Shown one piece after another: positions 16,021 to 64,000 of a stretch of 64,000 bases of DNA. The stretch's first letter is position 1; every line of letters begins with the position of its first letter. The notes under the pieces are model-generated. The model was given only the letters and a program-made list of their open reading frames with translations. It was not told where the DNA came from and did no database searches. Origin of the DNA: Sphingobacteriales bacterium (GTDB lineage: Bacteria > Bacteroidota > Bacteroidia > Chitinophagales > Chitinophagaceae); NCBI GenBank assembly GCA_004144185.1, contig SEFP01000003.1, forward strand, positions 124,001 through 188,000, written 5' to 3'. The translations under genes were made by a program, and so were the position numbers.

Positions 16021-17442
16021 TTAGCGTTTATCCCGACGAACGATCTGAGCCACCAGATCCGCTTCCGTTACCAGGCGGTTGCCCACATAGGCGGTCGCAT
16101 GCATCTCACAGATGCCCCGGCGGATCGGATTGGTCATTTCCAGCTTCAGCAGCAAGGTATCGCCCGGCAATACCTTGTGCTTAAACTTGGCTTTGTCGAT
16201 TTTGATAAAGTAGGTATCGTAGTTTTCCGGATCCGGAATATTGTTGAGCGCCAGAATACCCCCGGCCTGTGCCAGCGCTTCAATCTGCAACACGCCCGGC
16301 ATGACCGGATTGCCCGGGAAATGGCCCGGGAAAAATGGCTCGTTGTAGGTTACGTTTTTCAGTCCGACTACATGTGAATCAGACAACTCGATGATCTTAT
16401 CGACCAGCAAAAACGGAAACTTATGCGGCAGCGACTTTGCAATATGGTTGATGTCGTAGACAGCCGGCTGGTTGGGATCGTACTGCGGCACATCGCCCTG
16501 TCCTTTGTTCTTTTTGATAAAGGCTTTAATCTGACGGGCAAACTCTACATTGGCCGCATGACCGGGCCGGGAGGCAATGATATGGGCATTGATGGGCGCA
16601 CCAACCAGCGCCAGATCCCCTACGATATCCAGCAGCTTGTGACGGGCCGGCTCGTTCGGGAAATGCAACTGGAGGTTATTCAGGATGCCTTCCGACTTAA
16701 CCTCCATGGAAGGCTTGCCAAAAACGGTTGCCAGGCGGTTCAGTTCTTCCTGGTTTACCGGCCGGTCGACGACTACGATGGCATTGCTCAGGTCACCGCC
16801 TTTGATCAGGTTGTTGGCCAGCAGGTATTCCAGTTCATGCAGAAAAGAGAACGTACGGCAGGCCGCAATCTCAGTTTCAAATTCGCCCAGATGGCGCATG
16901 GCCGCATGTTGGGTACCCAGCACCGGCGAGTTAAAGTCAATCAGCGTGGTGACCGAATAATGATTGGCCGGTACGGCCAGCATATCCACATTCTTCACCG
17001 GATCGTAGTAATGAATGTGGGTATCCAGGGTATAGACAATACGCTTGGCATCCTGCTGCTGGCGGCCGGCTTCCTGAAGCACGTTCAGGAACGGCATGGC
17101 CGAGCCATCCATAATCGGCACTTCCGGACCATCAATTTCAATCAGGGCATTGTCGATTTCCAGGCTGTAGAGCGCCGCCATCAAATGCTCAACGGTTGAA
17201 ACCCGTGCCTCCCCATTTTCCAGCGTCGTGCCCCTGGACGTGTCGGTTACATAATCCACGTCTGCTTTCACCACCGGACGGCTGTCCAGATCAGTCCGCT
17301 GAAACCGGATGCCATGTCCCGGATTGGCCGGCAGGATATTCAGGGTCACCTGTGCGCCCGTGTGCAGTCCGGTTCCGGAAAGCGTTACTTTTTGAGCCAG
17401 CGTATGCTGCTGGGGAACAGAAGAAGTGCAAATTTTCGTCAA
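16021..17442 (-). CDS. lpxC-fabZ: Bifunctional LpxC deacetylase / FabZ dehydratase
   Basis: A 473-residue fusion. Residues 1 to about 310 are LpxC, the zinc-dependent UDP-3-O-acyl-GlcNAc deacetylase that commits the pathway to lipid A; motifs are [20 protein letters not shown] with a zinc His, and [12 protein letters not shown]. Residues from about 320 are FabZ, the 3-hydroxyacyl-ACP dehydratase with hot-dog fold; motifs are [13 protein letters not shown] and [20 protein letters not shown] with the catalytic His. The fusion is characteristic of Bacteroidota. The only possible start is TTG 17,442, since a stop codon lies a few codons upstream in frame. The gene sits 43 bp after lpxD. Confidence 0.95.
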
Positions 17443-22165: not shown

Positions 22166-22558
22166 ACAGTTAGTGAGTAGTGGTCCGCGATTCGGAGGAA
22201 ATGCTTTTCCGAAAAGTATGCGTTCCGGAACAGGCGGCCTCAGCTTGGCGGTTCTGATAGTAAGTTGTGCGTTCCGAAAGAAAAGCAATCCATTCCGGAA
22301 TCGCAGTAGCCCAGTCCAAGCGTGTAGCAGCTCAATCCAGGTCTTTAGTTATATAATTCTACTAATAAGTAGGCTATTCCAAGCGCTTCGTTGCGTAGTT
22401 CTACCGTTGCGCAGTCCAAAACCAGCGCTCAGTTAAGTAGCCCTAACCATATGTTTGCTTTCTTAACCTGCAAAGAGGGATTCAAAGACTCTTTTCTTTT
22501 CATCTTGACGACCCGGAACGTGATTGAGGTCGTTTTCAGATCATCAACTGCGTTCCTG
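22166..22558. other. Gene-free region with a degenerate 21-bp array
   Basis: No credible gene. It contains the upstream region of PBP1A, three or so TTCCGGAA-like sites, and a nine-unit 21-bp periodic array at 22,261-22,449 (see that entry). An open plus-strand frame of 87 codons follows the periodicity as seven-residue repeats but has no family features. Confidence 0.6.
22261..22449. repeat. Degenerate tandem array, nine 21-bp units
   Basis: Cut every 21 bp from 22,261, nine units align without gaps. Position 4 is G in all nine units and position 15 is C in all nine. Position 3 is A or C, positions 5 and 10 are always pyrimidine, and position 11 is A in eight. Typical segments are AAGTAGGCTATTCCAAGCG (22,367) and CAGTAGCCCAGTCCAAGCG (22,304). 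The array lies in the gap between two same-strand genes. No function is known to me. Confidence 0.7.
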
Positions 22559-54127: not shown

Positions 54128-55186
54128 CTACTTTGATGAAATAGAAGGAAGTTTGGCAATCGCATTAGCTTTCATCTCGTCATTGACCTTGACGTAGCGC
54201 TGAGTATTTGCGAGAGAGGTGTGACCAAGCAACTTTGAGGCGATAGATACGTCCACCCCATTCGCAATCAGATTGGTTCCAAAGGAATGGCGGCCAGAGT
54301 GCCACGAAATCTTCTTATCGATCCCAGCTTCACTAACGAGGCGTTTGACCCATTTTTGACAGGCTGCATGGGAGGGCAGTTTGAATATGAGTTCATGACT
54401 CTTCCCCCGCTCCGGCAGCTGGTCTTTTGCGTCCTCATTGAGTGGGACTGAAGTGAAGGTTTTCGTCTTTTTCTGCAGGACGCCTAGCTTTCCATTAGAT
54501 ATATTTTCCCAACGTACCTGACTGACGTCGCAATAACGAAGGCCGGTAAACACGCAGAAGAGAAACGCCCTTTTTACAACATCATTTCCCAGAGGGGTAT
54601 TGGCGATCATTTTGATCTCTTCGTAGTTCAGAACATCCTTTTGAAGAAACTGCCTTTTTCTGACCACGATATGACCTACCGGATTGCCTACCAGCACACC
54701 ATCGCTCAACGCAGCTTTGATGACCTGCTTTAGTTTAGCGAAGTAGTTAGAAGGACTTTCCCCTTGGAGCCTTGACTCCAAGAAATGGACGAATTTGCGC
54801 AGATAGCCTTCATTGATTTCAAAGCAAGCAATTCGTTCTTTCCCTGCATAAGCCACCAGTTTACTGCGCATAGCGTGAAACTTCTTAATTTCCTGAACCT
54901 GATGGTTCGCTATAAACTCGTCTAAATAAGCAGTGAAGTCCCGATTTGGCTCATACCCTCGTTCTAGGTGGTTCACTCCTTCGAGTAGGGCCTTCTCTCT
55001 TTTGAGACTTAATGCTCTTATAATATTTATCTTCTCTTTCTTCTCTTGACGTTCAGCCAGATTAGACGGATTAGACTTATACTTCACACCAGTAGATTCG
55101 AACTTTCTTACTCCATTGATATGGATATCGAATTTTGCGGTTTCGTAGCCATTAGCTAGCTTGTGGTATCTGATTTTTAGTCTCAT
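54128..55186 (-). CDS. Tyrosine-type site-specific integrase
   Basis: A 352-residue phage-type recombinase. The N-terminal arm-binding and SAM-like core-binding domains cover about residues 1-180 (FTAYLDEFIANHQVQEIKKF). The catalytic residues are visible: Arg in CVFTGLRYCDVSQVRW (about 216), HSGRH (H296, R299), LLGH (H322) and the nucleophile Y331 in ANTQRYVKV. It would insert the element into the tRNA-Leu 3' end and excise it with the HTH protein. The gene reads inward from attR, with a long leader of about 360 bp that holds candidate binding sites. Confidence 0.93.
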   Translation of the reverse strand: MRLKIRYHKLANGYETAKFDIHINGVRKFESTGVKYKSNPSNLAERQEKKEKINIIRALSLKREKALLEGVNHLERGYEPNRDFTAYLDEFIANHQVQEIKKFHAMRSKLVAYAGKERIACFEINEGYLRKFVHFLESRLQGESPSNYFAKLKQVIKAALSDGVLVGNPVGHIVVRKRQFLQKDVLNYEEIKMIANTPLGNDVVKRAFLFCVFTGLRYCDVSQVRWENISNGKLGVLQKKTKTFTSVPLNEDAKDQLPERGKSHELIFKLPSHAACQKWVKRLVSEAGIDKKISWHSGRHSFGTNLIANGVDVSIASKLLGHTSLANTQRYVKVNDEMKANAIAKLPSISSK

Positions 55187-55310
55187 TTGGAGGCGATTTC
55201 CACTAATAACACTCGTGCAATCAACGAATTGTTAAAGAAGCAGTGGTTTTTAAGAAAAAAGAAGCGCTTTTTCTAGTTTAGATCGCTAAATTCCAAAATA
55301 ATACATACAT

Positions 55311-55333
55311 AAACTAATATTGAACATTAGTTT
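55311..55333. promoter_or_regulatory. Inverted repeat in integrase leader
   Basis: 8-bp arms AAACTAAT / ATTAGTTT with a 7-bp spacer, about 125 bp before the integrase start. Possible site for the excisionase-like or XRE protein. Confidence 0.45.
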
Positions 55334-55433
55334 TTAAATTAAAAAAACAATTATAATTCGCCTCAAGTTCAGCGATTTTAAATTAACAAATCAGCCTCCT
55401 TTTTGAGATATCTACCTTCCCTTGCAAAAGCAT

Positions 55434-55458
55434 GAGAAACGTTTTCGAAACGTTTTTT
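55434..55458. promoter_or_regulatory. Putative integrase arm-type site, right end
   Basis: GAGAAACGTTTTCGAAACG then TTTTTT. It contains two AAACGTTT palindromes 11 bp apart, one helical turn, and matches 48,628-48,651 inside the left end in the same orientation. Confidence 0.55.
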
Positions 55459-55549
55459 GAGCAATTAAAAGAAAAAAGCCTTAGTTTAAAAAGCAAGAAA
55501 ACGTTAGCTTACTACAGCTCTTCTTCATTTTTGAATTCAATAAAACGAG

Positions 55550-55572
55550 GGTTCGATTCCTGTTCTGGGCAC
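55550..55572. repeat. attR core (23-bp direct repeat)
   Basis: Exact copy of the tRNA-Leu 3' end (48,546-48,568), followed at once by the original terminator of the tRNA gene. Confidence 0.92.
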
Positions 55573-55602
55573 AAGCCCCCCTTTTTAGGGGGCTTTTTTA
55601 TG
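55573..55602 (+). terminator. Original tRNA-Leu terminator, displaced by island
   Basis: AAGCCCCCC / GGGGGGCTT-type hairpin with T run directly after attR. In the uninterrupted chromosome it would follow the tRNA. Confidence 0.8.
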
Positions 55603-56033
55603 CCCCTACCTTAGTAAAATAAAGGACTTGCTTTCGTTTTCGATTGCTTCCGATTTTTCCCTGTCAATTGTTCCTCTACCGTCCTTCGGACTGGATAGAT
55701 GCACATTTGAGTATCCTCTCAGTCGAATTTTTATAAACGAAGACCCACCGAATTTGGAACAGTAAAGATTCCGGTACAGGTGCAGCTTTCGTTCACATAT
55801 CTAATCGGCCAGCGTTGTATTGCCGGCCTTGGATGCAAAAATGGCTTCTTCTTAAACGGGTTCTTCAACTTTTAGACCCTGTTCATCAACTTCTGGACCC
55901 TGTTTATCAACTCTTCTGATTTGCCGCACCCAAAAGACGGAATTTCGTAGACTGTTCTTCTTTGCAGGCATACATCCAACCTATCGAAGAACGGGTTTTC
56001 AGAATGCCCTCCCGTTTACTTCTCCCAGTTATT
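55603..56033. other. Gene-free leader with 21-bp triple repeat
   Basis: No credible gene. It holds three 21-bp units at 55,861-55,920 and should contain the promoter of the large beta-helix protein; a sequence GTTCTTCTTTG near 55,950 is the closest to a sigma box. Confidence 0.5.
55861..55923. repeat. Three 21-bp tandem units
   Basis: Units start at 55,861, 55,882 and 55,903. TCAAC occurs at 55,865, 55,886 and 55,907, exactly 21 bp apart; the first two units also share GACCCTG. The same TCAAC phase is found in the array at 61.5 kb. Confidence 0.7.
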
Positions 56034-59000
56034 ATGAAGCGACCCTTCGTTACACTCCTCTGTTTTTTGCTGTCCTGTACCGCCGCTCATGCCACCGTTT
56101 ACTATGTAGACGGCTCGAAGGCTAATAACACCGGCGCCGGTACCTCCTGGGCCACTGCCAAGAAAGACGTTCAGGCCGCTATTAACATCGCAACGGTCGC
56201 CGGTGACGAGGTATGGGTCAAGGCCGGCACCTATCTGCCTACCCTAGACCCCAACAGCGCTTCGCCCACCGACCCAAGAGACAAGACTTTTTACATCAGA
56301 AGCACTGATATCAAGCTCTATGGCGGTTTCAACGGCACAGAATCCTCCAGCAGTGCACGCAACGCCACGGCCAACGCAACGATCCTGAGCGGCGATCTGG
56401 ACGGCAGCACCGGAACAGCAGACGCCTACCACGTACTCCTGACGCAGAATCGCACAAGTGCCTGTGTGGTAGACGGCTTTGCCATCAGGAGCGGAAGGGC
56501 CAATGGAACGAGTTATTTCGTAGCTAACACACCTTCTGTAAGCATTTTTAGAGAATATGGTGCGGGAATGTATAACCGTAGCAGCAGTCCTACGGTGAGT
56601 GCCTGCGTTTTCTCGGGGAACAGCGCCACTACCTATGGCGGGGGGATGCACAACAACAACAGCAATCCCTCGGTAACTGCCTGTACCTTTTCGGCAAATA
56701 CGGCCGGCAATGGCGGTGGAATGGAAAACACCAGCAGCAATCCTTCAGTAAGTGCCTGCACCTTTTCGGGGAATACGGCAGTCTTTGGGGGGGGAATGGA
56801 GAACATCAGCTGCAGTCCTACTGTGAGTGTCTGCACCTTCTCGGCCAACACGGCGGTTAACGATGGCGGCGGGATCTACAACAACAGTTACGCCAGTCCT
56901 GCGGTGAGTAACTGCATCTTTTCGACTAACAGTGCTACCTATGGTGGGGGAATGTATAACACCTCCTACAGCACGCCTTCGGTAAGCGCCTGCACCTTCT
57001 CGGCCAATGCGGCAAGTTCTAGTAGTGGTGGTGGAGTCTATTACAATTTTGACGCGGGTGGTACTATCACCAACAGCATCCTCTACGGCAATACCAGCAA
57101 TTCCTCGAACCAGCAGAATATCTATAAAATCGGACCGAGCGGAACGCTCACCGTCAGCTACTCCCTTATGGGTGGCTATACCGGTGGGGCCGCAGCTTAT
57201 TATACCATTGGTTCCGGAGTCATTGGCGGAAACCCCCTGTTTATAACCCCAATGAACCCGGCCGGGACAGACGGCAGGTTCCGCACCGCCGACGACGGGC
57301 TGCGCATCAGTTGCACCTCTCCGGCCAGAGACGCAGGCACGGGCACCACGCCCCTAACCGATATCCTGGGCAATCCCCGCGTAGGCATAATCGATATGGG
57401 AGCATATGAGGCTGATGCGGGCTGCCCGGATGTGCTCTACGTGGACGGCTCCAGGCCGGATAATTCCGGAAGTGGCTACGGCTGGGCAAGCGCCAAAAAA
57501 GACGTTCAGGCGGCGATCAACGCAGTAGCGGCAGGCGGCGAGATATGGGTGAAAGGAGGAACGTACCTGCCCACCGAGGACCCCAGCGGCAATGCCGCAC
57601 CCAGCGACCTACGGGACAAAACATTTTACCTTACGACGAAAGATGTGAAGCTTTATGGCGGCTTTTCCGGAACGGAAACCACCCGTTCTCAACGCAACCC
57701 GGCGATCCATGTAACGACGCTGAGCGGCGATCTGGACACCGCGGGCGTCACCAACGACGCGTACCACGTAGTGGTGATGCTCACCCGTTCGCAAGCCTGC
57801 GTCCTGGACGGCTTTACGATCCGGGGCGGGCGGGCCACCGGCAGCGGTACGTCTGCAAGCACCTACGACCAAAGTAAAGGAGGCGGCATTTACAATACCA
57901 ATGGCAGCCTGGCCACCGTAAGCAACTGCATTCTCACCGCTAATACCGCGAGCAGTGACGGTGGTGGTTTCTATAACGCCAACAGTAGCAGCCCGACGGT
58001 AACAGGTTGCATTTTTTCAGCCAACACTGCGGCTAACGGTGGAGGTATGATGAGCACCAACAGCAGCAACGCAACGCTAACAGGTTGCGTGTTCTCGGCT
58101 AACAGCGCGACCAACGGTGGAGGAATGTACAGTACCAATGCCAGCGGAGGTACTATGAGCACGTGTCTGTTTGGTTCCAACACAGCGCAAAAAGGCGGCG
58201 GCGTCTATCACGACAACGGACCCATTGCCATCAGTAGCAGCACCTTCACAGCCAACACAGCCAGTACACAGGGTGGCGGCGCGTACCTGACTGCGATCAG
58301 CGGCGGCAGTATCATCAACAGCATTTTCTCCGGAAATACCGGCGGCCCCGCCAACCGGCAGAATATCTACAAAGACGGCACCAATGCTCCATTGACGGTG
58401 AGCTATTCGCTCATTGGCGACTACAGCGCGGGGGCGACCAATAACTATACGTCAGGTTCCGGGATCATTACCGGCAATCCGCTCTTTGTAAACAGCGCTT
58501 TGCCTGCAGGTACAGACGGCGCCTTCCGGACTTCGGACGACGGCCTGCGGATTAGCTGCGCCTCTCCGGCACGGAATGCAGGCACCGGCACCACGCCCGC
58601 AGCCGATATCCTGGGCAACCCACGGATATTCAGCATAGACCTCGGGGCATACGAGGCCGATGCAAGTTGCCTGAGCCTGTTTTATGTGGATGGCAGTAAG
58701 GCCACCAACAGCGGTGACGGACTGAGCTGGGCGGCGGCTAAAAAAGATCTTCAGGCGGCGATCAACCTGGCTATCAACAACGGCGACGAGATTTGGGTGA
58801 AGGCAGGAACCTACCTGCCCACGCTGGACCCCAACGGCGGTACGGGCCAGCGAGACAATACGTTTTACCTCACGACTAAGGACGTGAAGCTTTATGGCGG
58901 CTTTTCCGGAACAGAAACCACCCGTTCCCAGCGCAACCCGGCGACCCACGTAACGACATTGAGTGGTGACCTGGACGGGCCGGGCGGTACGGCAGATGCC

Positions 59001-61079
59001 TACCATGTATTGCTGACGCTGAACCGCACGAGCGCCTGTGTGGTAGATGGCTTTACCATCAGCGGCGGGCGGGCCAATGGGACCGGTGCGTTCCCAGTCA
59101 CCACACCTTCTGCAGGCATTGATAGAGGCACTGGCGGAGGAATGAACAACGATGCCTCCAGCAGTCCTTCGGTAAGTGCCTGTGTCTTCTCAGCCAACAC
59201 GGCAGACCTTGGTGGCGGGATGTACAACTCTTTCAGCAGTCCTACAGTGAGTGGCTCCACGTTCTCGGCCAATACGGTCTCGCTCTCTGGCGGTGGAATG
59301 TATAACACCAACAGCAGCAGTCCTGCGGTGAGTGGCTGCATTTTCTCGGCCAATACGGCAACCAATAGTGGCGGTGGGATGGAAAACGACTACTGCAGTC
59401 CCTCAGTGAGTGCCTGCATCTTTTCGGCCAACACGGCAAGCTATGGCGGTGGGATGCTTAACCTCAGCAGCAGTCCTGCCGTAAACGCCTGCGTCTTCTC
59501 GGCCAATATGGCAAGCTACGGCAGTGGGATGTGCAACTCCTTTTCCAGCATGCCTTCGGTAAGCACCTGTACCTTCTCGGCCAACACGGCAAGCAGTAGT
59601 GGTGGTGGCGGGATGTATTACGATGTCAGCTCCGGCGGGAGCATTACCAACGGCATTTTCTACGGCAACACCGGCGGCCCCACGAACCAGCAGAATATCT
59701 ATAAGGACGGAACGAGTCCAACGCTCACCGTCAGCCACTCGCTCATCGGCGATTACAGCGCAGGGGCAACCAATAATTACACATCCGGGGCAGGCATAAT
59801 CACTGCCGACCCCTTGTTTGTAAGCAGCTCTTCGCCTGCGGGCGCAGATGGCACATTCCGGACCGCCGATGATGGTCTCGCATTGCAATCGTGCAGTCCG
59901 GCAGTCAACAGCGGCACCGGCACCACGCCCGCTACCGATCTTTCCGGAAACAGCCGTGTTGGGACCCTTGACCTGGGCGCCTACGAATATCAGGGCGCAC
60001 CCTCCTCCACCCTCGCCGGAAGTGCCACTACGGACAGCCGCAGTCCGCAGGGCGGCAGCGCCCTTGCATTTGGAACCTGCGGCGCAGCCATTGCTTCGCT
60101 GAGTCCATCCGGCGCGGCCCCGGTCACGGGCAGCATCGCGGCCAAGGTATACGTTCAGTCCACTGCGCCGAGCTACAACCAAATGTTTTACGTGCGCCGC
60201 TACTACGATATCACCCCGGCCACCAATCCGAATACAGCAACCGCACAAATCACCCTGTACTTCTCCCAGGCCGACTTTACCAATTACAACACCGTACGGG
60301 GTTCGTTGCCGCCACTGCCCGTCGATGCCGCCGATGCCGCCAATAATAAAGGCAACCTGCGCATCACCCAGGAACATGGCACCTCTGCCACCGGGCTGCC
60401 GGGCTCCTACAGCGGCTGGAGCGGCACCGGACCGGCCAAAGTGTTAATTACGCCTATGAGCGTAAGCTGGAATGCGACCTTTTCGCGCTGGGAAGTGCTC
60501 TTTCCGGTCACAGGCTTTTCCGGTTTCTTTGCTACCAGTGCTATCAACCGACCTTTGCCGGTAGAGCTCCTGAGCTTTAGCGCCCGCCTTGCCGGTGAAC
60601 ACACCAACCAGCTGGACTGGACTACGGGCGAAGAAGAAGGTGGACTGCGCTTCACCGTCGAGCGCAGCAGCGATGCGAAAAGCTTTCGTTCCATTGGAGC
60701 GGTGGCCGGAACGGGCCATGGCAGTACCTACCGGTTTATGGACGTTGCGCCATTGGCAGGCGACAACTACTATCGCTTGCAGGTGCCAGCCGTATCGGGC
60801 GAGGTACGCTACAGCCAGACGGTGTTGGTGAAAGGGTCCGGAGCCACCGGTTCCGGTACGGTTGCGCTCTCGCCCAATCCGGCCACCGGCCGGGTCACGA
60901 TCGTTTGCACTGACAAAGCGTTGGAAGGCAGCCAGGTCCGTATATGGAGTGCGGAAGGCCGGCTGATGCACACGTTTGTTTTGGAACGCGAGACGACGCT
61001 GGACGTCCACGACTGGGCAGTAGGCGTGTACCTGCTTCGCCTCCAAGACGGCAGCACCCTGCGCCTCATCAAGAACTAA
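56034..61079 (+). CDS. Large secreted beta-helix protein with triplicated module and T9SS sorting domain
   Basis: A 1,681-residue exported protein. The signal is MKRPFVTLLCFLLSCTAAHA; ATG 56,034 is used rather than the TTG-led frame from 55,962. Three modules of about 430 residues each start with TVYYVDGSKANNTGAGTSW, continue with AAINIATVAGDEVWVKAGTY and KLYGGFNGTE, and end with GNPLFxxxxPAGTDGxFRT then LGAYEAD. Inside each module are many short strand repeats of the type GGGMYNxSSSPSVSACTFSA. This is a right-handed parallel beta-helix with the choice-of-anchor-Q ending. A shared 200-residue domain, a linker and the sorting domain (LSPNPATGRVTIVC ... LRLIKN) follow. A surface adhesin or carbohydrate-related role is plausible; no catalytic site was seen. 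Confidence 0.85.
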   Translation: MKRPFVTLLCFLLSCTAAHATVYYVDGSKANNTGAGTSWATAKKDVQAAINIATVAGDEVWVKAGTYLPTLDPNSASPTDPRDKTFYIRSTDIKLYGGFNGTESSSSARNATANATILSGDLDGSTGTADAYHVLLTQNRTSACVVDGFAIRSGRANGTSYFVANTPSVSIFREYGAGMYNRSSSPTVSACVFSGNSATTYGGGMHNNNSNPSVTACTFSANTAGNGGGMENTSSNPSVSACTFSGNTAVFGGGMENISCSPTVSVCTFSANTAVNDGGGIYNNSYASPAVSNCIFSTNSATYGGGMYNTSYSTPSVSACTFSANAASSSSGGGVYYNFDAGGTITNSILYGNTSNSSNQQNIYKIGPSGTLTVSYSLMGGYTGGAAAYYTIGSGVIGGNPLFITPMNPAGTDGRFRTADDGLRISCTSPARDAGTGTTPLTDILGNPRVGIIDMGAYEADAGCPDVLYVDGSRPDNSGSGYGWASAKKDVQAAINAVAAGGEIWVKGGTYLPTEDPSGNAAPSDLRDKTFYLTTKDVKLYGGFSGTETTRSQRNPAIHVTTLSGDLDTAGVTNDAYHVVVMLTRSQACVLDGFTIRGGRATGSGTSASTYDQSKGGGIYNTNGSLATVSNCILTANTASSDGGGFYNANSSSPTVTGCIFSANTAANGGGMMSTNSSNATLTGCVFSANSATNGGGMYSTNASGGTMSTCLFGSNTAQKGGGVYHDNGPIAISSSTFTANTASTQGGGAYLTAISGGSIINSIFSGNTGGPANRQNIYKDGTNAPLTVSYSLIGDYSAGATNNYTSGSGIITGNPLFVNSALPAGTDGAFRTSDDGLRISCASPARNAGTGTTPAADILGNPRIFSIDLGAYEADASCLSLFYVDGSKATNSGDGLSWAAAKKDLQAAINLAINNGDEIWVKAGTYLPTLDPNGGTGQRDNTFYLTTKDVKLYGGFSGTETTRSQRNPATHVTTLSGDLDGPGGTADAYHVLLTLNRTSACVVDGFTISGGRANGTGAFPVTTPSAGIDRGTGGGMNNDASSSPSVSACVFSANTADLGGGMYNSFSSPTVSGSTFSANTVSLSGGGMYNTNSSSPAVSGCIFSANTATNSGGGMENDYCSPSVSACIFSANTASYGGGMLNLSSSPAVNACVFSANMASYGSGMCNSFSSMPSVSTCTFSANTASSSGGGGMYYDVSSGGSITNGIFYGNTGGPTNQQNIYKDGTSPTLTVSHSLIGDYSAGATNNYTSGAGIITADPLFVSSSSPAGADGTFRTADDGLALQSCSPAVNSGTGTTPATDLSGNSRVGTLDLGAYEYQGAPSSTLAGSATTDSRSPQGGSALAFGTCGAAIASLSPSGAAPVTGSIAAKVYVQSTAPSYNQMFYVRRYYDITPATNPNTATAQITLYFSQADFTNYNTVRGSLPPLPVDAADAANNKGNLRITQEHGTSATGLPGSYSGWSGTGPAKVLITPMSVSWNATFSRWEVLFPVTGFSGFFATSAINRPLPVELLSFSARLAGEHTNQLDWTTGEEEGGLRFTVERSSDAKSFRSIGAVAGTGHGSTYRFMDVAPLAGDNYYRLQVPAVSGEVRYSQTVLVKGSGATGSGTVALSPNPATGRVTIVCTDKALEGSQVRIWSAEGRLMHTFVLERETTLDVHDWAVGVYLLRLQDGSTLRLIKN

Positions 61080-61482
61080 GTACGATCCGCCTTCAGGTCT
61101 GATGCGTCTTTCGCTTCGGGCCTGAAGGTGTTTGATGAAAGACCGGACGGCGGCCTCAATGCAGCGTAGGGACTCATTGACGACGCAACCGGCAGGTTTC
61201 CGGAAGGGCAGCTTTTTTCAAATCAGGTTCCTTGAGAACCAGCTTGAAAAAGCTGCCACCGCGAGACCGGCGGCGATGCTGTTTGCGGCAGACTGTATAG
61301 TGGCTGCTGCACCGGATATGCCTATCGCGCCGGCGATTCCGGCAAGGCAGTAGGCCAACAGATGAGATGCGGGAAGCATTCGTGTGCGGCACCGCAAAAA
61401 CGGTCTCCGGTAGCTGCATGCCCTGCAATTGGTTGCCTTTAGGTATGGCATGATGTGCCTGACTGACCTCGTCGATTCCTCT

Positions 61483-61798
61483 TACATAGGGTCATTTAAT
61501 CCTGTAGGAGGGTCCGTCAACGTTGTAAGGGGGTCCGTCAACATTAAAAACGACGATTTCAACAGTGTAAGGGGGGGCTGTCAATATTGTAAGGGGGTCC
61601 GTCAACATTAAAAACGACGATTTCAACAGTGTAAGGGGGTCCGTCAAGGTTGTAAAGGGGTTTGTCAACATTAAAAACGACAATTTCAACAGTGTAGGAG
61701 GGGCGTTTACTATTAAATGGGGGCCTAAAACGGTTTCCAGAAGGGGTAAAATGATTTTAAGGGGACCTATAACGGTTATATAAACCATAATATCATTT
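61483..61798. repeat. 21-bp tandem array, about 15 units, with 63-bp higher order
   Basis: Units follow each other at 21 bp (one is 22 bp, at 61,567). TCAAC or a near match recurs every 21 bp from 61,517 to 61,686. Three unit types alternate in the middle: one with GGGGGTCCGTCAACATT, one with AAAAACGACGATTTCAACAG, and one like the first. Together they make a 63-bp higher-order repeat at 61,525, 61,589 and 61,652. Read on the plus strand, and removing the one extra base, the array is an open frame of seven-residue repeats (VRGSVNI, KNDDFNS) to a stop at 61,781. It may be a decayed repeat gene or non-coding. Confidence 0.8.
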
Positions 61799-61929
61799 GA
61801 GATCCTTCAACAGGATCTGGATCCGGCCCATGAATTCCATGAGAACAGGTAGCGTATCCCATTAAGGTCTGCTCGCTTGCGTTGTCAGCCCGAGCCGGTC
61901 GAACACTCCCATAGCCTTGCAGAAACGGA

Positions 61930-62090
61930 GTCCTTGCGAGGCACGAAGCAATCCATCATTTATCCGGACCTACATCCTACGAGATTGCTTCGTTGTCCCT
62001 CCTTGCAATGACACAGAAAGGACCCGAACTCCGGACTTGTAACCTAATTCAATCCAGTAACCAAGTCATTGTAAGGGACGAAGCAATCTC
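61930..62090. repeat. Dispersed inverted repeat, three arms
   Basis: Arms contain ACGAAGCAATC (61,942), GAGATTGCTTCGT (61,981) and GGACGAAGCAATCTC (62,076). The second and third are inverted copies that also share CAATGAC / GTCATTG at their outer ends. The sequence resembles REP-like intergenic repeats found in many bacterial genomes. Confidence 0.65.
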
Positions 62091-62261
62091 ACTCTATCCA
62101 GATTGAAGATTGGATATGAACTGGCTGTTGAGATCAAAACACACCGATACCGGAGCTAACCAAGAGGAATTCTATGTGGCTGCCTAGTGCTCTGCCAGCG
62201 TTTATCAATCGGGTTGCATAGCAATAAGTTCTTAGCAGTAAAATAAATACGTCCGCAAATT

Positions 62262-62290
62262 TTGAATAGATTATTCGGCTGATACCTTTG
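62262..62290 (+). promoter_or_regulatory. Promoter of LamG-type protein
   Basis: TTG (62,262-62,264), 18 bp, then a perfect TACCTTTG box (62,283-62,290), 41 bp before the ATG; full match to the Bacteroidota promoter consensus. Confidence 0.65.
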
Positions 62291-62331
62291 CGCCGCATTA
62301 AAAGACGAAACACTCCTCACTCCCCACATAA

Positions 62332-64000
62332 ATGACAAAATTCTACGCGATTGTTCTATTCCTGGCCGTCTTATTTCTACGGCCTTTAGTAGCCCAGTCT
62401 CAAATCAACGCCTCACCGATTCAGACCAATTCGTTAACGATCAGTACAGGTTCCGCTTCCTTTGTACAGGGATATCCGTATACCATCTCCTACTCCAGCA
62501 GCGGTTATGTCTTTAATTCCGGCAATACCCTAACGGTTCAGCTCAGCGATGCGAGCGGATCGTTTGCGAACACAACCAGTATCGGCTTAGCCAATACCAC
62601 TTCTACATCCGGTACGATTCCTGTGGTTGTTCCTTCCAATGCAAGTGGAACAAGCTACAGAATGCGGATTGTCAGTTCTACTACAGCAGTTACCGGCTCC
62701 GACAATGGTAGCAATCTGACCGTTACCGCAGCTCCAACCAATGCGCTACATTTTGATGGTATCGACGATTATGTAGCCATTGGAAGCCCTCTTGCTGCCG
62801 GCAGTTCCTATACAAAGGAAGCCTGGGTTTATCCGACCAATGCAGCTTCCGCACGAAACATTGTTTCATCAGATAGCAACCCGTTTTGGTTTACGCAAGG
62901 AAAGCTTTGTGCGGGTAATGGAACGAACTATTCCGTTGTTTCTGAACCCAGTACAACCGCACTAAATACCTGGACGCATGTGGCTGTAACCTATGATGCA
63001 GCTACTGCTACCATGAGATTGTATAAAGATGGGGTTCTCGTCGGTACCGGCACCAATGCTCCAGTTCCACCGGCAGAAGCGGTTTTTATCGGTAGTCACA
63101 ATGGGACCCTTTCGTATTTTGAAGGTGCGATCGATGAAGTCCGGGTGTGGAACCGCGCCCTGTGCCCAACCGAGATTCAGAACAACATGAACGGATTGTT
63201 GCCCACTTCGAACCTGCAAAATGGCCTGATTCGCTCCTACGACTTTAATCAGGGTGCTGCCAGCGGCACGAACACATCCATTACCGCCTTGCCTGACAGA
63301 AGTGTTTCCGGAAGTACTGGTACGCTAACCAATTTCTCCCGTACCGGCGCCACTTCAAATTTTGTAACCAGCACAGTTGCAACAACTACTGCCACCGCAT
63401 ATCAGTCCGCTACTGCAGGTGCAAGCAACAGCAGTACACAAATGATGTATGGTGCCACCAGTTTCTATTCAAACTGTGATGGAATTGCCGTTGTTTCGCC
63501 CACCGGTTCACAGCCGGTTTCCGGATCCGTCAGTGCGCGGGTCTGGATTGAAAGCAACGGACCTACTTATAATGGTGCGCCTTACCTCGCCCGGCATTAT
63601 GAGATCACACCGGCAACCAATGCTACAACAGCTACCGGAACCATCACGCTGTTCTATACCCAGGCAGAATTTACCGGCTATAATGCGGCGGCCAATCATG
63701 GTCTGAATCTACCAGTAGATGCAACCGATGCGCAGAACTACAAAGCCAATCTGCGCATTACCAAAAAGAGTGGTACCTCCTCTAATGGAACCGGTCTTCC
63801 GGGTACTTATAACAACGGTAAAATTGTCATCATTCCAACCAGTGTAACCTGGAATGCGAGTACCTCCCGTTGGGAAGTGGTACTCCCCGTAACCGGTTTC
63901 TCCGGGTTTTTTGCCTCGACCTCCACAACAGCGCTCCCGGTGAAGGTGCTTTCTTTCACTGCTCGCAGGGCTGAACAAGGCACTGAGCTTACCTGGCAGG
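62332..64000 (+). CDS. Secreted LamG-domain protein, cut by window end
   Basis: At least 556 residues, open to the right edge. The signal peptide is MTKFYAIVLFLAVLFLRPLV with AQSQ after it. Residues 30-135 form a beta-sandwich domain with Ser/Thr-rich strands (IPVVVPSNASGTSYRMRIVS). Then comes a concanavalin/LamG-like domain: NALHFDGIDDYVAIGSPL, TYDAATATMRLYKDGVLVGT and GAIDEVRVWNRALCPTEIQN. The last 190 residues repeat the domain found near the end of the 1,681-residue protein (ITPATNATTATGTITLFYTQ, WEVVLPVTGFSGFFAST, then LPVKVLSFTA). A T9SS sorting domain is expected beyond the window. It is a likely cell-surface protein. Confidence 0.85.
   Translation, partial: MTKFYAIVLFLAVLFLRPLVAQSQINASPIQTNSLTISTGSASFVQGYPYTISYSSSGYVFNSGNTLTVQLSDASGSFANTTSIGLANTTSTSGTIPVVVPSNASGTSYRMRIVSSTTAVTGSDNGSNLTVTAAPTNALHFDGIDDYVAIGSPLAAGSSYTKEAWVYPTNAASARNIVSSDSNPFWFTQGKLCAGNGTNYSVVSEPSTTALNTWTHVAVTYDAATATMRLYKDGVLVGTGTNAPVPPAEAVFIGSHNGTLSYFEGAIDEVRVWNRALCPTEIQNNMNGLLPTSNLQNGLIRSYDFNQGAASGTNTSITALPDRSVSGSTGTLTNFSRTGATSNFVTSTVATTTATAYQSATAGASNSSTQMMYGATSFYSNCDGIAVVSPTGSQPVSGSVSARVWIESNGPTYNGAPYLARHYEITPATNATTATGTITLFYTQAEFTGYNAAANHGLNLPVDATDAQNYKANLRITKKSGTSSNGTGLPGTYNNGKIVIIPTSVTWNASTSRWEVVLPVTGFSGFFASTSTTALPVKVLSFTARRAEQGTELTWQ

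Follow-up and report, generated by a model that had tools for sequence, protein, structure and literature searches.

An intergenic 21-bp minisatellite of a Chitinophagaceae genome and a possible class of non-coding arrays with a preferred two-turn length

A tandem array of 21-bp units situated between two genes of a member of the Chitinophagaceae can be read as a series of seven-codon repeats, which raises the question whether it is the remnant of a gene encoding a repeat protein or a non-coding array whose period only happens to be seven codons. The window analyzed here is the whole stretch of 64,000 nucleotides that contains this locus, and it belongs to contig C11 of a draft genome of 3.3 Mb in 47 contigs. 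Genes are taken here as open reading frames, with no gene finder behind them. The features that are relevant for the following are:

22240 to 22479, no strand assigned: second array of the same class, period 21/42 bp, more degenerate, between the transglutaminase and penicillin-binding protein genes
55860 to 55912, no strand assigned: short 21-bp array of 2.5 units just upstream of the beta-helix gene (TRF, sequence)
55962 to 61079, plus strand: flanking gene for a right-handed beta-helix protein with a type IX secretion C-terminal signal (Pfam Beta_helix, Por_Secre_tail)
61080 to 61470, no strand assigned: spacer common to the paralogue on contig C1 (94% identity over 61080-61500; differences 9/8/9 modulo 3, not coding-like)
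61471 to 61783, no strand assigned: 21-bp tandem array of about 15 units (TRF, wrap-around fit, homologous arrays on contigs C1 and C15)
61567 to 61588, no strand assigned: 22-bp unit carrying an additional G within a G run (sole within-array gap versus C1; insertion called at 61571)
62332 to 63999, plus strand: downstream flanking gene with a laminin-G-like domain, extending beyond the window (Pfam Laminin_G_3)

A preliminary description had reported about fifteen units of 21 bp, grouped by threes into a 63-bp repeat, in gene-free DNA, and all of this was borne out. A wrap-around fit, for which periods from 18 to 25 were tried, was best at 21 and gave a span of 14.9 units; TRF places the array within 61503-61704 and reports periods of 21, 63, and 64. 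As a tandem repeat, the array is far beyond chance. In its first two thirds, a 63-bp AAB order occurs three times, consisting of two A units of the GTAAGGGGGTCCGTCAAC type and one B unit of the AAAAACGACGATTTCAAC type per 63 bp, with one change of AAAAACGACGATTTCAAC in the third copy of the B unit; the units that follow, at the end of the array, are more diverged. Open frames end at 61079 and resume at 62332. Head-to-tail imperfect repeats outside genes define a bacterial intergenic minisatellite, and the window array is of this kind. The units of the short array at 55860-55912 are of the GGGTC type on the minus strand.

Two further copies of the window array are present in the genome. The copy on contig C1 has 84% identity, and the copy on contig C15 is weaker, with 66% over positions 101-308 of 316. 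According to blastn, the C1 array adjoins a paralogue of the beta-helix flanking gene, and the segment common to C11 and C1 consists of the gene end, the 400-bp spacer, and the array, the likeness ending where the array ends. As flanking gene and spacer are both in common, this pair is a segment duplication. The two arrays can be aligned unit for unit with base substitutions and one 1-bp gap, and the number of units is unchanged. This gap lies in the G run of the 22-bp unit, so that the extra base is real relative to the paralogous copy. The plus-strand frame is open as described earlier, and in C1, which is without the extra base, it extends over 110 codons.

A repeat-protein gene with seven-residue repeats, intact in C1 and recently frameshifted in C11, would explain the C1 frame; a freshly frameshifted repeat gene had been offered as one of two readings. 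The substitutions contradict it. Differences between C11 and C1 are distributed over codon positions 1/2/3 as 12/17/18 in the array and 9/8/9 in the spacer, whereas the 3'-terminal 1,080 bp of the adjacent gene have 32/27/110. When the unit positions of the C1 array were shuffled 5,000 times, 27% of the shuffles had a stop-free run as long as the C1 frame, and the open frame is thus not beyond chance; it also survives 41% of divergences simulated at the observed size. In favor of such a gene, the C1 frame has weak Pfam matches to MINT_RAM7 (E 6e-6) and to LbR_Ice_bind, the grass ice-binding beta roll (E 4e-4), although both are below the curated cut-offs; it has no match in NCBIfam, and the best match among solved structures (PDB) has an E value of 0.79. 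Without codon-position bias, with an open frame at chance level, and with no database match above cut-off, the heptad-repeat gene was rejected, and we regard it as most improbable.

This is further supported by the behavior of the class to which the array is assigned below. In 20 intergenic arrays with periods of 21, 42, or 63, the 3-bp conservation power is 0.64 with a null of 1.04, which is no signal, versus 2.65 with a null of 1.05 (p<0.0005) in 34 repeats inside long frames (36 minus two with periods not divisible by 3). The window array fitted at 63 reaches a 3-bp power of 2.7, above that of the other 19 intergenic arrays, which is a point in favor of the repeat gene. Indels were called in 6 of the 20 intergenic arrays (1 to 5 each) and in none of the 34 coding repeats, a zero that is favored by the selection of the latter via long frames. 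Units with lengths other than multiples of three had been named beforehand as the finding that would speak against a coding origin, and such units exist: the C15 array has a further one-base insertion, four consecutive units of an array at locus L105 are one base short, and an array at locus L122 has five one-base departures. The window array is non-coding and is no broken gene. The other reading, a non-coding array whose period merely happens to be seven codons, holds for its first part; its second part does not fit the dominance of 21 bp among the sampled intergenic arrays of three genera. As the class shows, a 21-bp period can imitate a seven-residue repeat gene, which is a trap for gene prediction.

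That the repeats give rise to a structured or regulatory RNA is about as improbable as the repeat gene. For the window array, plus-strand folding has a z of -1.85, with 5 of 100 shuffles as good, which would fit such an RNA; z is -0.18 for the minus strand, and the only Rfam match in 55000-64000 is far below the gathering score and outside the array.

Since their duplication, the arrays on C11 and C1 have diverged at 47 of 304 sites versus 26 of 404 sites in the adjacent spacer, the array being the faster of the two. Along 60900-61480, the spacer is 92-97% identical to C1 per 100 bp, the preceding gene mostly 78-89%, and the array 76-87%. The high identity of the 3' spacer of the two paralogous secreted-protein genes may reflect gene conversion or constraint. 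A sequence profile built from the C11, C1, and C15 arrays (R1) detected arrays at three additional sites of this genome. No match to a degenerate DNA pattern of the B unit was obtained in GTDB contigs, and the DNA of the window array had one further match only in 59 relatives, a chance 20-bp match inside a reading frame.

Copies at several places might suggest that the arrays move as cassettes, like the MITE-borne BrickBuilt repeats of Porphyromonas gingivalis. Homology among the arrays on C11, C1, and C15 extends over their length, and nothing beside the C15 array corresponds to the spacer left of the C11 array; more arrays with GGGTC units occur in the genome, and an array is present or absent at one orthologous gap (see below). 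These observations are consistent with movement. However, the C1/C11 pair is accounted for by the segment duplication, and the units of most sampled arrays are unrelated. Around the C11 array there is one long inverted pair of 16 nt (61499-61514 and 61801-61816, 81%), which is not kept in the C1 flank. A mobile minisatellite is considered an improbable explanation.

Whether the window array is an isolated case was addressed with R1 and by sampling. R1 matches were obtained in 13 of 294 genomes of the family and in 5 of 296 genomes of the phylum, counts that are biased and both include this genome. In G468, which belongs to another family of the phylum, four of five R1 matches were viewed and all are 21-periodic; a match in G451 showed no array by eye. 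R1 is itself 21-periodic, and stretches were therefore also sampled by place, twenty of 20 kb each from this genome and twenty of 20 kb each from G279, with smaller sets from other genomes. These samples are not wholly blind, because a profile match was already known on the contigs sampled from G279, G181, G269, and G174 and on three of the four sampled from this genome. Tandem arrays were counted if they did not lie within a much longer reading frame; the samples are small and of unequal size, and a single kind of detector served throughout.

In 464 kb of this genome, with the window and the finding itself included, eight of ten non-coding arrays have a period of 21, 42, or 63. The same periods account for 6 of 9 non-coding arrays in 400 kb of G279, one of the six (in L122) known beforehand by R1, and for 5 of 9 in 100 kb of G269, both genomes belonging to other genera. 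In 100 kb of G024 there was one of three, which is weak, and there were none of five in 200 kb of G174 and none of one in 100 kb of G181. The period-14 arrays of G174 and G269, by eye mainly 7-bp repeats, were kept in the denominators. Non-coding arrays of any period were absent from 100 kb each of G007 and G020. In the congener G003, none of one array in 242 unmasked kb has a period of 21, 42, or 63; six G003 contigs that gave period 10 at 1.0 were left out (in one, the first 120 bases are all N, and the other five are assumed to be alike). Five genomes of other families in the order (326 kb) gave one of five, and this single array reads as a glycine-rich protein; the counts do not include L206 of G055, the units of which by eye read as a glycine-rich protein. 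The best 80 of 348 named relatives carry the labels Chitinophagaceae, Flavipsychrobacter, Taibaiella, Segetibacter, and other Bacteroidota; in 676 kb around their penicillin-binding-protein genes, three of five non-coding arrays have a period of 21 or 63. By eye, one of the three is a 7-bp repeat and another a short repeat rich in AT, and the third, L281, is clear. Arrays of 7-bp repeats (for example GGTTTAT and AAGCCTA) in L173, L174, and L177 of G174 and in L254 represent a second class of intergenic arrays.

The preference for 21 bp is also seen when neighboring periods are compared. In the 800 kb of this genome and G279, scanned for periods of 15-30 with a lower threshold and with coding repeats left in, there were 27 hits for period 21, ten each for 18 and 24, nine for 15, eight for 27, seven for 30, two for 22, and none for 19, 20, and 23. 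Fifteen arrays of the two genomes, with scan periods of 21, 42, 63, or 43, were all fitted best by 21 among 18-25, a result that is partly circular for all of them but the 43. It is suggested with moderate confidence that the arrays form a patchy class of non-coding minisatellites that is lineage-specific, lies between genes, and prefers a period of 21 bp, in some cases 42 or 63.

The units of these arrays have little in common. Twenty-two consensus units, taken from place-sample arrays and in one case from the window, were compared pairwise in all rotations and on both strands, and the mean best match was 9.98 of 21 versus 9.85 in shuffles. A match this close to shuffle level indicates that length is the main property shared by the arrays. 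Pairs matching at 12 or more of 21 positions numbered 28 versus 17 in shuffles, and this excess indicates that some loci are related; related units are those of the GGGTC type in this genome and the GAGTTACAAC type in G279. A motif common to the loci was not found, and the likeness of arrays detected with R1 is partly due to selection by R1. A 7-bp substructure was rejected as well, lags 7 and 14 being at null level (z 0.1 and 0.3, 20 arrays). Lag 20 is raised in 20 arrays (z 4.9).

As the period equals two helical turns, each unit could be a site for a DNA-binding protein, and a spacing of 21 bp would put the sites on one face of the helix, leading to a filament or cluster with a role in nucleoid organization or regulation. 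In 34 arrays, conservation varies along the unit with a 10.5-bp component (p <=0.0025, permutation null), and 15 place-sample arrays gave p values of 0.012 to 0.059 under this null. The signal is weaker under a red-noise null, with p 0.015 for 33 arrays, 0.04 for 24 less related arrays, and 0.14, not significant, for the 15 place-sample arrays that were chosen without the profile. Duplicate or homologous arrays were left out: three in the permutation test, four in the red-noise test, and nine more for the 24-array set. The palindromy of units is slightly above that of shuffles (p 0.02, 37 partly related units), some arrays have conserved cores and a variable remainder, and the 42-bp arrays of G269 by eye contain large palindromes inside the unit. 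All of this would fit a phased binding platform.

In contrast, intrinsic curvature has no clear excess over 20 arrays (mean z 0.34, from wedge parameters), and no motif is common to the loci. Scarcity of indels was considered as proof of a selected phase; in 15 arrays, a mean of 1.3 indels was called versus simulated neutral means of 0.7 to 2.9, and the argument was dropped because neutral decay simulated and passed through a comparable detector leads to similar counts. The neighbors of the arrays are ordinary, unrelated genes in mixed orientations: the flanks of 13 arrays comprise 20 frames, 15 of them with a Pfam match, and no family occurs twice, the families including mutS, yidC, purD-like, miaE, and penicillin-binding genes. 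The first three loci had hinted at a link to secreted-protein genes, which was rejected, as one weak secretion-tail match occurs among these 20 frames. In addition, the arrays were not seen in the congener samples. A binding platform is therefore placed second and considered unlikely.

Comparison of orthologous gaps gives an impression of the age of the arrays. The gap between the transglutaminase and penicillin-binding protein genes has 398 bp in this genome and contains the array 22240-22479; it has 56 bp in G003 (from sequence) and about 45 bp in G001 (from tblastn ends), and there is no array between the two genes in these congeners. In G002, the flank examined beside the transglutaminase gene did not contain the penicillin-binding gene. 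The two genes are adjacent in 11 among the best 80 of the 348 named relatives, the gaps being estimated at 48 to 586 bp. An array is located upstream of mutS in this genome, and none was present in G002 (991 bp examined) or in G003 (200 bp examined). The absence in congeners of the arrays at the penicillin-binding protein gap and at mutS indicates that both are recent relative to the genus. For the gap between the M16 and YidC genes, M16 was not found beside YidC in three congeners.

Bacterial minisatellites are usually regarded as isolated slippage accidents. One length dominates loci of largely unrelated sequence in the three genera sampled, and the length itself thus needs explaining; it suggests either that two helical turns are measured in the course of amplification or that phase is read by a protein. 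The reading placed first, which we consider to have about an even chance of being correct, is a two-turn amplification followed by decay through point mutation. Each array would be born by local amplification of whatever sequence is present, the amplification step presumably being two helical turns, as suggested by the 21-bp period. After birth, arrays would age by point mutation, and the window array would be an old member of the class. Any function of the arrays would be at the level of DNA and not of protein. Two-turn amplification is ranked before the binding platform because there is no clear curvature excess, no convincing RNA structure in the window array, no recurrent flank family, and no scarcity of indels, and the called indels fit neutral decay together with detection bias. 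The 10.5-bp component and the slight palindromy count against amplification and decay, as neutral decay would not give them, and so do the raised lag 20, the relatedness of some loci, the faster divergence of the array compared to the spacer, and the 3-bp power of the window array. More tentatively, a patchy system of Bacteroidota may make or read locus-specific intergenic arrays that share mainly a two-turn register, either through an amplification enzyme that measures 21 bp or through a DNA-coating protein that recognizes phase and not sequence.

Literature searches, which covered few papers of subscription journals, revealed no description of such a class of 21-bp arrays. The nearest known elements are the BrickBuilt repeats of P. 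gingivalis and the tandem repeats of archaeal Borgs, BrickBuilt being the closest in the same phylum. BrickBuilt elements are intergenic 23-nt minisatellites at 19 loci of one genome with 1 to 22.8 repeats each, and they resemble the arrays described here as intergenic, imperfect tandem repeats of about 20 bp in Bacteroidota (PMC4596501, in part). In contrast to the arrays of this study, they have one 23-nt unit family and form a mobile element with leader and tail and, in many copies, small inverted ends (PMC4596501, in part). The present arrays have a period of 21 bp and units that differ by locus and are largely unrelated, no leader or tail was identified, and a 23-nt unit of one family across loci was not encountered. 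Borg arrays similarly arise independently over the genome, and an intergenic one is present in one element and absent in a close relative; their units are perfect, and 14-38% of the intergenic unit lengths are divisible by three (PMC9879509, in part), whereas the arrays here are imperfect, mostly of 21 bp, and on a bacterial chromosome. TAACTGA heptamers are also intergenic short tandem repeats with a patchy distribution across phyla, including five Bacteroidetes, but have a 7-bp unit of fixed sequence (PMC4679880, in part), whereas the arrays here are without 7-bp substructure. In the portions of these three papers that were accessible, none of the elements combines a preferred two-turn length with locus-specific sequence.

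Other repeats were observed as well. In L105, GCCCCATCGGGGC palindromes at 16080-16200 and 16680-16780 flank a stretch that adjoins the array and resembles a REP-associated transposase, although the plus-strand frame that was tested had no Pfam match. Intergenic dispersed repeats around CATTGCGAGG...GAAGCAATC and GTCATTCCGACGCAGGAGGAATC, which are similar to the REP type, are located at 1040-1380 of L002, 1-760 of L003, and 13509-13800 of L125.
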